Assembly (NCBI GenBank): GCA_030041475.1
Contig: JASHNU010000079.1
Location: 112,685-176,684 of the forward strand
Direction of reading: 5' to 3'
Length of the DNA: 64,000 nt
From: Candidatus Sulfotelmatobacter sp.
GTDB taxonomy: Bacteria; Acidobacteriota; Terriglobia; Terriglobales; Acidobacteriaceae
Shown: positions 6,290-9,930 of the stretch, piece after piece
Layout of the letters: each line of letters starts with the position of its first letter
How positions within the stretch are numbered: position 1 is the first letter of the stretch
The notes under the pieces: model-generated
Database searches by the model: none
The model's input: the letters and a program-made list of their open reading frames with translations, nothing else
What the model was told of the DNA's origin: nothing
Program-made: the position numbers and the translations under genes

Positions 6290-6422
6290 GCGTGAAATGA
6301 AAGCGAAGAAAAGGCGAATTTCGCAGATTGCGGTGGAAAACGTCCCGAAATGGGCAACGGGCGGGGGCCTCGACGTCGCGGAACATCTATAATCAGACCA
6401 ACTTCGTTGGGACGAGGTGGTT

Positions 6423-8144
6423 GTGGATCGAGATCGTGTAATCAAGCAGGTCAAAACAAACGGTATACGGTCCGGTGGCCAGCTCCTGACCGTCATTAAG
6501 CCTCTCGGTGAGGGCGGCAATGGCGCAGCCCTGCTTTGCAAAAGCGAGGACGGGAAAGAATGCGTCGTGAAACTGTATCTCCCGCCCGAGAAGCGCGAGC
6601 TGGATGAGAGAGCAATAGCGCGCTTCGAGAGCGAGATTAAGCTGACGACTACAATCCGCCATCCGAACGTGGTTAAGTCGCTCGATTCCGGCAGGCTACA
6701 GATTGGCGCCTACTCCCTTCCTTTCTACGTGATGCCACGGGCTACCAAAACTCTACGCGATTTCACCGATTCTCACGGCAACGATCCCGCCAAAATCGAG
6801 CAGAGGATGAGGATCTTCCTTCGCGCTGCGCTCGGCGTGGCCTGCCTCCACTCGAACGGCGTTTTTCACCGTAACCTCAAACCCGAGAACATCTTGATAA
6901 GCAGAGACGGCACGCCCTGGGTGGCCGATCTCGGAATCGCCCACGTCAATCCAGAGTTCGCATCGGGAGGGGTGAAGACCATGGAGAGCGAGCGCCTGCT
7001 GAACCGCGATTACTATGCCCCGGAGCAGCGGTTCGGACGGGCAACCGAGGTAGACCACCGCGCTGACATATGCGCGCTCGGCTACATTTTGTACGAGCTT
7101 CTTGCAGGCTTTCCCCCCGTCCGGAACGGTTCGCCGGCCCTATCGAAAATCAATGAAGCGTTTGCCCCGTTGGATGCCATTTTTAACAGAATGACGGCAC
7201 ACGAGCCACCAGACCGATTCGCGGTTCTTGAAGACGCGATTGAAGAGCTATCGATCGCCTTCGGGTGGATTCTGGCGACCACAAAAGGTGTTCGCCCGAT
7301 GGAAAGCGCTAACGTCCCAGCGATGGTGAAGCTGCTGAAAAGCTCAAACGAAGCCCACAGACAGCGCGGGATCATTCTGGCGATGCAATTGCGCGAGGAA
7401 GCGCTGGATGCGCTTCATCAGCTCACCGGGCACACGAGGCGCGACATCCGCAATTCGGCAGTAACTGCCCTTGGAGAGATTGCGCATCCCAGCTCCCTGC
7501 CATTCGTAGCGGGCTGCCTCTACGGCGGGAGCGGGAGAGCCTCGACCTTTCGCCCCTCTGCCGACACGGCAGCGGCGGCGATCGCCAGGTATCCCGCTGA
7601 TCTGAGGCTACAAGTCTGCGGCCAAATCTCTCAGCCAATTCGCCCACATCAGGTTCAAGAAATGCTGAAGGACATCCCGAAGGACGTAGCGTACGCTACG
7701 GTGCAAAAGCTCCACAGTGCTGAACTGTTACTGCTCGACTGGAGCGAGATCCCGCTGACGGTCCTGGCGGCTATCGACGAGGAAAGGGCGTGGCCGGATA
7801 TCGCCAAGCAGATGAGCGACGGTAAGATCGGAGGGTTTCAGGCTAGGCAATTGGTTTCGGTTCTTTCGCCGCCTCACCAACGTGAGTTCCTTGACGCCTG
7901 GATCGAACGCGAGAGGGATGGCTGGTTTTTCGACTATCTGTTCAAGGCCATTCTCGGAGCCGACATTGCACCCAAAGAGAGGGCTCAACTCCTCACGCGC
8001 TTGAGATTCAAGGTCGAGGACGCAGCGGCATTCAAGAATCAGTGGGAACTGCTCGCGAGCATTCGTGACGCTGAATCAAGGCAAGGCGGCATCGCGCCAC
8101 AACCCGACAAGATCTTCGCGCACCTCCTAGAGGAAGGGTCCTAG
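6423..8144 (+). CDS. Ser/Thr protein kinase-like protein with HEAT-type repeats; catalytic HRD changed to HRN
   Basis: The N-terminal ~270 residues are a Hanks-type kinase fold: Gly-rich loop GEGGNGA, Lys in CVVKLY, alpha-C Glu in FESEIKL, activation segment starting VADLG and ending YAPEQ. The catalytic loop reads HRNLKPEN (codon AAC), so the catalytic-base Asp is Asn while the other visible key residues remain. From about residue 295 helical HEAT-like repeats follow, e.g. around RDIRNSAVTALGEIAHPS. No membrane segment is seen. I prefer the GTG at 6423 because GAGG lies 5 nt upstream; the track start at 6417 overlaps that RBS. Wobble positions are less C/G-biased than in recA or the thyX-like gene. 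It could be a pseudokinase scaffold or a weakly active kinase. Confidence 0.8.
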   Translation: MDRDRVIKQVKTNGIRSGGQLLTVIKPLGEGGNGAALLCKSEDGKECVVKLYLPPEKRELDERAIARFESEIKLTTTIRHPNVVKSLDSGRLQIGAYSLPFYVMPRATKTLRDFTDSHGNDPAKIEQRMRIFLRAALGVACLHSNGVFHRNLKPENILISRDGTPWVADLGIAHVNPEFASGGVKTMESERLLNRDYYAPEQRFGRATEVDHRADICALGYILYELLAGFPPVRNGSPALSKINEAFAPLDAIFNRMTAHEPPDRFAVLEDAIEELSIAFGWILATTKGVRPMESANVPAMVKLLKSSNEAHRQRGIILAMQLREEALDALHQLTGHTRRDIRNSAVTALGEIAHPSSLPFVAGCLYGGSGRASTFRPSADTAAAAIARYPADLRLQVCGQISQPIRPHQVQEMLKDIPKDVAYATVQKLHSAELLLLDWSEIPLTVLAAIDEERAWPDIAKQMSDGKIGGFQARQLVSVLSPPHQREFLDAWIERERDGWFFDYLFKAILGADIAPKERAQLLTRLRFKVEDAAAFKNQWELLASIRDAESRQGGIAPQPDKIFAHLLEEGS

Positions 8145-8208: not shown

Positions 8209-9930
8209 CTACCTTTGCAGCAAATCCACTGGCGCGGTCACATCGTGAACGCGGAAATACTTGGCCAACGCCGGATACTTCCGGGCCACGGCCTCATACA
8301 TCGCATAGGCCACGCTGCGATAGGAGACATGCCCCGCCGGGGTGGTGCGCAACTCCGCGATGTAAACGGCCTCGGCGAAGTCCATCTTGAACAGCGCCCG
8401 CTTTTTGAACGCCAGCGGAATGGCGTATTGCGAATTTTCTTCTGCTTCGGCGGCCTTGCGAGCAGCCAGATTCTCCACCGTCGCCTGTGCCCGGCGCATC
8501 GCCGCCTCAAACCGGGGACGCATGCCGGCATCTTCCAGGTCCATCAGCATCTCGTATCCGTGCTGCGTGGTCGACTGCTGCATGACCTGAATGCAGCGCC
8601 GATGACGGTGCATGTCGCGGAATCCGCCTGTGTCCATGAGAATGTCGAAGCGGAACTGCTGCCCGGCGCGGAAAGCGCGCAACATTTCATCGTGCTTGCC
8701 GCGATGCCGCAGGCCCAGGTCGATAATTTCGCGCCGCCGCCGCTCGCCCGCCACCTGCACCGCCTGCCGAATCTGCCGGTAGGAATAATGGCTGTGCTCG
8801 TAGAGCAGCGTGGTCGCAATTTCCACTTCCAGCGGCTCGTCGTCGAGCAGGTCCACAATCGCTTTCGACGGCGCCAACTGCTCGTGCCGCATCAGCTCGC
8901 GTGCCGCCTGCCGCAACTCGCGCCGCGTGGCCATCTCATACTCGTTCGGATCGGCATATTTCACCAGCGTCGGCGCCACGCGGACCTCGCGTAGCAATTC
9001 CTGCTCCGCCCGCGCACCCAGCTCCGGATTCGCCGCGCGAATCTGCTCCACCAGCGCGCGCAGGGAATCGGCATTCACGTTGTAGGCCGGTCCTGTCGCC
9101 GCCTTCTTCAACGATTCGCCCAGCACGCGCACTTCTTTGTGCGTATGCGAGAGCAGATGGGCGACCTGCATTTCCAAAGTTCGCGCGTTCACGATCTCGC
9201 CCAAAGAAGTATTCGTGGCCAGCGGCAGCAGGTAGCGGGTGATGTCGAATGCCCGCGCCTTCAGCGTGCGCTCGTACGTCTCCTGCTTCATATCGGCGGG
9301 CTTGGGCGTAATGCTGATCAGGTAATCGGTCATCACCGCCGAGAGCGATTCGTACTCAGCGAAGAGAAAATCCATCGTCTCGCGATAGAGCCTGCGGGCT
9401 TCGTCGTCGGCGCCAAAGTCCGGCGTGTAATACCCGCTCTTTTTGAAGTCCTGATAGCGCGTCGAGCGCTCCTGCCCGTCCCAGCGCTGCTCGTCGGCCA
9501 GCTCGATCGCTGCCAGAATCGAAAGCCGCTCGACCGCCAGCGCAATGTGCGCCAGGTCGGCAATCGAACGATGCCCGTACTGGAAATAAAAAGTGTTGAG
9601 GAACTTCTCCGCCTTCTGCGAACTGATCTCGCGCAGCGACTCTTTCATCGACAGCGCCGACCGCGAATACTTCGCCATCGCGTAAGCCTGAATCTCCGGC
9701 TCCACGCCGAAAACGGCAAAGACTTCGGTAGAAGGTTCAGCGGCCGACGCGGACGCCGCGTCGGGCGTGGGGTTCGCCGCTGGAGCAGCATTGTCTGCCC
9801 CCGGTTTTTCCGCCCAGGCCCGCTGCGGCGAACGGTGCCCGGACCCGCCGGAAATGGGCACTACGCTCGCTGAATTCTTGTTGGAGGTTTCGGGCATCAC
9901 GATAACTTCATTCGCCGCATTTTGAGCCAT
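8209..9930 (-). CDS. Large two-domain ThyX-like (FAD-dependent thymidylate synthase-like) protein
   Basis: The 573-residue protein has two ThyX-like halves after an Ala/Pro-rich N-terminal tail of about 70 residues. Classic ThyX is about 220-250 residues with one RHRxxSxNExSxR motif. Here the first half (near residues 130-170) ends GQERSTRYQ, keeping the SxRY end but lacking RHR. The second half (near residues 430-450) has MHRHRRCIQVMQQ, keeping RHR but lacking the SxR end. The usual motif is thus divided between the halves. It may still methylate dUMP with FAD and methylene-tetrahydrofolate, since ThyX sites form at subunit interfaces, but this is unproven. It is convergent with the kinase gene. 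Confidence 0.8.
   Translation of the reverse strand: MAQNAANEVIVMPETSNKNSASVVPISGGSGHRSPQRAWAEKPGADNAAPAANPTPDAASASAAEPSTEVFAVFGVEPEIQAYAMAKYSRSALSMKESLREISSQKAEKFLNTFYFQYGHRSIADLAHIALAVERLSILAAIELADEQRWDGQERSTRYQDFKKSGYYTPDFGADDEARRLYRETMDFLFAEYESLSAVMTDYLISITPKPADMKQETYERTLKARAFDITRYLLPLATNTSLGEIVNARTLEMQVAHLLSHTHKEVRVLGESLKKAATGPAYNVNADSLRALVEQIRAANPELGARAEQELLREVRVAPTLVKYADPNEYEMATRRELRQAARELMRHEQLAPSKAIVDLLDDEPLEVEIATTLLYEHSHYSYRQIRQAVQVAGERRRREIIDLGLRHRGKHDEMLRAFRAGQQFRFDILMDTGGFRDMHRHRRCIQVMQQSTTQHGYEMLMDLEDAGMRPRFEAAMRRAQATVENLAARKAAEAEENSQYAIPLAFKKRALFKMDFAEAVYIAELRTTPAGHVSYRSVAYAMYEAVARKYPALAKYFRVHDVTAPVDLLQR

Follow-up and report, generated by a model that had tools for sequence, protein, structure and literature searches.

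The DNA analysed here is a stretch of 64,000 nucleotides (the window), the reverse strand of which carries an intact open reading frame with an ATG start, encoding a ThyX-like protein of two domains (Table 1). Pfam analysis revealed two matches to Thy1 (PF02511), with an E-value of 3.6e-30 for the whole protein. In a six-frame search the two matches scored 67 and 43 bits, each above the cut-off of 24.8 bits. The curated ThyX equivalog model TIGR02170 gave 26.9 bits, which is below its cut-off of 87.9. The ThyA profile (PF00303) did not match the window protein, and Thy1 was the only family found by Pfam. The closest relatives, with identities of up to 94%, were from Acidobacteriota, mostly Candidatus Sulfotelmatobacter and other Acidobacteriaceae. 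A comparison of start sites indicated that M12 is nearly invariant among relatives; the annotated start may therefore lie 11 codons too early, with M12 (position 9897) as the alternative. The neighbours of the gene are recA, a kinase with HEAT repeats, a short-chain dehydrogenase, and a GNAT acetyltransferase, and this surrounding is uninformative on function. The kinase, a Ser/Thr protein kinase (6417-8144, + strand), is located between recA and the ThyX gene and is convergent with the latter.

Table 1. Features of the two-domain ThyX gene and their positions in the window.
Feature	Position	Strand	Remarks
Two-domain ThyX gene	8209..9930	-	573 aa; only Thy1 gene in the genome
N-terminal extension, residues 1-69	9724..9930	-	Poorly conserved; pLDDT <50 (first AlphaFold2 model, close relatives)
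Domain 1, ThyX-like, ~residues 70-285	9076..9723	-	Pfam stretch 79-274 and AlphaFold2 model
Domain 1 H120-S122, counterparts of T. maritima H53 and T55	9565..9573	-	
Domain 1 D146-E147-Q148, at the RHR position (lost motif half)	9487..9495	-	Alignments
Domain 1 E154-R-S156-T-R158-Y159, retained ExSxRY loop	9454..9471	-	S and R 55/55, Y 54/55
Domain 1 R232, counterpart of T. maritima R147	9235..9237	-	55/55
Domain 1 N248-A249-R250, counterpart of T. maritima N163-A-R165 (Mtb Arg190)	9181..9189	-	
Domain 2, ThyX-like, ~residues 300-573	8212..9033	-	Second Thy1 match and AlphaFold2 model
Domain 2 R442-H443-R444, retained RHR	8599..8607	-	55/55
Domain 2 R528, counterpart of T. maritima R174 (Mtb Arg199), uracil-activating	8347..8349	-	55/55

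The contiguous ThyX signature RHRxxSxNExSxR was absent from either domain. Domain 1 has QERSTRY (residues 153-159) at the site of the ThyX NExSxRY, and DEQ (146-148) replaces RHR; domain 2 has RHR (442-444), and the NExSxR that should follow it is missing. The original prediction had described RHR in the second half, SxRY in the first, and the full motif in neither. This split was confirmed in the sequence, although the domain 1 fragment had been given incompletely, as the Glu is also kept and the retained loop reads ExSxRY. The counterparts of R78, H79, R80, S88, R90, Y91, R147, and R174 (T. maritima numbering, as below) are all present in the window protein, shared out between the halves. 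Even when combined, the halves differ from canonical ThyX at several positions, among them N85, replaced by Q, and Q75, replaced by D.

We examined the conservation of this division in two-domain proteins from across Acidobacteriota and from phages, plasmids, and viral contigs. Residues were counted in a full-length alignment of 55 two-domain proteins and in an earlier per-domain test of 48. R78, H79, R80, and R174 were present in domain 2 of all 55 proteins, and ExSxRY was absent from that domain. In domain 1, S88, R90, and R147 were each found in 55/55 and Y91 in 54/55, so that seven of the eight catalytic positions were split without exception. The domain 1 counterparts of the domain 2 residues were gone, with Arg at the R78 position in only three of the 55 proteins and at the R174 position in one. 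The per-domain alignment gave Arg at this R174 position in 23/48; because the two alignments disagree (23/48 vs 1/55), the position is aligned less certainly in domain 1 than the others. Position 55 of domain 1 was Ser or Thr throughout the per-domain set (48/48), which retained H53 in 40/48. D146 and E147 were invariant in 41 close relatives of the window protein. The N248 and R250 positions were also invariant in the close family, and the R250 position was Arg in 27/55 of the wider set.

Nearly all viral proteins carried the same residues in the same halves; the exceptions were a Bacillus-type group that reads RHNR for RHR and fragments missing one motif. A strict motif pattern initially matched only one single-domain ThyX, because the canonical motif varies. 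The reading frame was open throughout the close relatives. Long tblastn spans had suggested insertions in four loci (L093, L101, L104, and L110), which were rejected, the open reading frames being intact. Since the same residues occur in the same halves in 55/55 two-domain proteins, these alignments indicate that the split is far beyond chance and is not decay.

AlphaFold2 modelling of residues 66-573 as a monomer, based on 57 sequences, gave a pLDDT of 92.8 and a pTM of 0.91. The first model, based on close relatives only, had a pLDDT of 62.6 and performed weakly in the fold search; the good model was obtained when viral relatives were added. Comparison of the model with the PDB revealed 36 matches at E <= 0.001, of which those listed were all ThyX, and the best solved match had an E-value of 1.4e-5. 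A sequence search of the PDB with the window protein returned nothing relevant. Foldseek matched the BFVD model of the Ma-LMM01 phage thymidylate synthase over the full length (TM 0.76/0.78, 516 columns). Both halves are thus confidently predicted to adopt the ThyX fold.

According to a review of solved structures, three subunits form the ThyX active site: subunit A provides RHR and Arg199 (T. maritima R174), subunit B the FAD contacts Ser71 and Arg190, and subunit C Arg87, Ser105, Arg107, and Tyr108 (M. tuberculosis numbers; PMC6514825). H53 of ThyX is located on a third monomer (PMC11940539). Residues with the A role were all found in domain 2, and the retained residues with the B and C roles all in domain 1. 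Because family-wide conservation tracks the published subunit roles, it is strongly supported that the residue partition follows these roles and that the halves complement each other.

These results suggest that the work done jointly by identical subunits in ordinary ThyX is split here between the two ThyX domains. Domain 2 would act as the subunit giving RHR and the uracil-activating Arg (R442-R444 and R528), and domain 1 as both neighbouring subunits, supplying the ExSxRY loop (E154, S156, R158, and Y159), R232, and the FAD/folate-side H120 and S122. From symmetry and the published roles, we infer that two chains form a pseudo-tetramer of four domains with two live sites. If domain 2 takes the A and D places of a tetramer with 222 symmetry, and domain 1 the B and C places, the two sites around A and D would be complete, each being built from one domain 2 and both domain 1 copies. 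The two sites around B and C would miss their residues and be dead. The acidic D146 and E147, at the dead-site counterpart of RHR, should not suit the FAD phosphates. Near residues 410-418, in domain 2, all 48 proteins of the per-domain alignment had Arg at the T55-aligned position, although some phage and Bacillus forms lacked it; the Arg may fill the dead site.

The original prediction was that the two halves may rebuild a site inside one chain. Both motif halves do lie on one chain, and the intrachain arrangement of the domains is confidently predicted (pTM 0.91), so that a complete site could in principle form without a second chain. However, the ThyX site spans three subunits, and Ser71/Arg190 come from a different subunit than Ser105/Arg107/Tyr108 (PMC6514825), whereas both residue sets lie in domain 1, which is present only once per chain. 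As B and C would both be domain 1, one chain should not complete a site and a homodimer can, and we consider a single-chain site improbable. The complementarity of the halves, seen as conservation along the subunit roles, stood, while the single chain was refined to a dimer of chains, because three subunits are required.

The routes to dTMP were examined in the genome, which is 99.6% complete. A six-frame profile search of the genome found no other thyX (Thy1), and thyA (PF00303), DHFR, and thymidine kinase were not found in it; dUTPase PF00692 had no match in the genome. Thymidylate kinase and dCTP deaminase were present. A second thyX or thyA elsewhere in the genome had been named beforehand as one half of a possible refutation, the other being a lack of FAD/dUMP binding, and neither gene was found. 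The lack of these genes, together with the phylum-wide pattern described below, strongly supports the proposal that this gene encodes the cell's thymidylate synthase.

A census of 149 acidobacterial genomes with Thy1, ThyA, and DHFR profiles revealed Thy1 in 113 and strong ThyA in 31, with no overlap; seven Thy1 genomes also had a weak ThyA-family match. Two Thy1 matches were found in 79 genomes. Subtraction of G041, with a single ThyX over two contig ends, and G086, with an intein, left approximately 77 two-domain genomes, in most of which the two matches were adjacent, among the matches listed. DHFR was present in 31/31 ThyA genomes, whereas a strong match was found in about 1/77 two-domain ThyX genomes, with three more having weak matches (Fisher p ~3e-26, with the relatedness of the genomes ignored). 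No DHFR was found in the 60 genomes of the window's family (0/60). The ThyX reaction gives back THF, so that DHFR is unnecessary for ThyX (PMC9931769). A ThyX reaction would agree with the mutual exclusion of ThyX and ThyA and with the missing DHFR, and about half of the sampled acidobacterial genomes appear to rely on the divided ThyX.

Other arrangements were also observed in the census. The remaining 5/149 genomes (G034, G100, G075, G108, and G140), which are nearly complete and belong to one genus, had only a divergent ThyA-family protein (loci L170 and L171, in G034 and G100). The L170 protein retains the DPPC, RSNDAY, and DSYHIY stretches, and the divergent protein may be the thymidylate synthase of these five genomes. 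Two genomes of the window's family (G115 and G099; loci L172 and L173) carry, besides a two-domain ThyX, a ThyA-family protein of ~340 aa that is divergent and may be a relative that modifies nucleotides. The G086 gene (L158; C1:4376900-4380200, - strand, 692 aa) encodes a single-domain ThyX with a long insert inside the motif, after KHRIAC and before NSEFNEISGRY, that ends in VHN. The insert resembles an intein carrying an HNH-type endonuclease. That ThyX can contain inteins is known from the title of a 2004 paper by Liu and Yang.

Homology alone is no proof of function, because the titles of PDB entries 3FNN and 3GE9 describe a Corynebacterium glutamicum ThyX not needed for thymidylate synthesis. 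We infer that the window protein binds FAD and dUMP and has thymidylate synthase activity. The chemistry would be that of standard ThyX, in which dUMP, CH2-THF, and NADPH yield dTMP and THF through FAD, and therefore no DHFR would be needed to recycle folate.

A composite site that binds FAD and a nucleotide might instead catalyse a reaction other than dTMP synthesis, such as modification of another pyrimidine nucleotide. The low TIGR02170 score, the changed N85 and Q75 positions, and the existence of phage copies would be compatible with this, as phages often modify nucleotides. However, such a reaction would leave the cell without a known dTMP source, the residues for dUMP and methylene transfer are all retained, and both the absence of ThyA from ThyX genomes and the loss of DHFR are in keeping with the ThyX reaction. 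We regard another reaction as very unlikely, and the data can be explained without a new activity. A degenerate, inactive ThyX pair heading for loss, with the split motif as a sign of decay, would account for the lack of an intact motif in either half but was rejected, being contradicted by the invariance of the kept residues across 55 diverse proteins, by the frame that is open throughout close relatives, and by its position as the only ThyX of a genome without ThyA.

Taken together, these findings suggest, with a probability of roughly 0.87, that the product of this gene is the flavin-dependent thymidylate synthase of the cell, duplicated and fused, and acting as a homodimer in which two sites are live and two are dead. 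The variant is real, old, and probably essential, and its chemistry is most likely ordinary.

Plasmids of Actinomycetota, Bacillota, and Bacteroidota also carried two-domain ThyX, as did phages of Microcystis, Vibrio, and Tunturiibacter. The acidobacterial jumbo phage Tunturi_5 of Tunturiibacter (PP885688.1; L163 2962-4518) has its copy immediately behind the gene for dCMP deaminase, and a gene for dUTPase lies close by; both of these enzymes have dUMP-making functions. Large plasmids of Miltoncostaea, Parabacteroides distasonis, and Bacillus carry the two-domain form (L165, L166, L167, and L169), and some of these plasmids may be phage-like elements. In a tree of the domains, obtained by a quick search and having long branches, domain 1, domain 2, and single-domain ThyX each fell on one side of a branch, with SH-aLRT values of 82, 95, and 88. 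This topology is consistent with one duplication and fusion giving rise to two-domain ThyX, as support and not proof.

Our literature search, which covered few subscription papers and had the main chlamydial one outside it, found no description of a doubled or tandem ThyX or of a divided site. It is likely that the protein represents an undescribed, large, and widespread ThyX subfamily, apparently the most frequent type of thymidylate synthase in Acidobacteriota and present also in phages and plasmids, in which one duplication and fusion reduced four sites to two, for good, and assigned the roles to separate domains. What is new is probably the architecture of a known enzyme reorganised by duplication, most likely with its usual chemistry. 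The divided ThyX scores below the cut-off of the curated ThyX model, and annotations say plain thymidylate synthase. It would provide a natural case of subfunctionalisation inside an active site, each domain having lost what the other kept along the subunit roles. The roles of ThyX subunits would become separately mutable in one polypeptide, which is impossible in a homotetramer.

Thymidylate synthesis is essential, ThyX is pursued as a drug target, and the ThyX of Chlamydia trachomatis is about twice the normal ThyX length. If the chlamydial ThyX is of the divided form, inhibitor models built on single-domain ThyX would need checking. Chlamydia trachomatis ThyX is named in the title of Griffin et al. 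(2005, J Biol Chem), as cited in PMC8316439, and ThyX in bacteria without thyA has been described (PMC3932018). ThyX was reported in 6/6 Chlamydiae and ThyA in none (PMC5954106); C. trachomatis, like the window gene, represents ThyX without thyA. A folA gene is listed for at least some Chlamydia (PMC4913046), whereas the genome studied here is without DHFR.

Among phage proteins, Microcystis phage Ma-LMM01 gp020 (PHROG 36506, phrog E 8.6e-32) has the same full-length architecture and the same divided signature at 27.5% identity to the window protein; it is annotated as a plain thymidylate synthase, and the records examined do not mention the division. The nearest phage relative, the phage-borne Tunturi_5 gp50, has the same signature and 47% identity over 88% of the protein. 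Canonical ThyX (PF02511, TIGR02170; T. maritima TM0449 and M. tuberculosis ThyX) has the predicted fold in common with the window protein and, once the halves of the latter are combined, the same catalytic residue set. Like the window gene, it replaces ThyA, often where DHFR is absent. Unlike canonical ThyX, the window protein has two domains per chain and a divided motif, and half of its sites are predicted to be dead.
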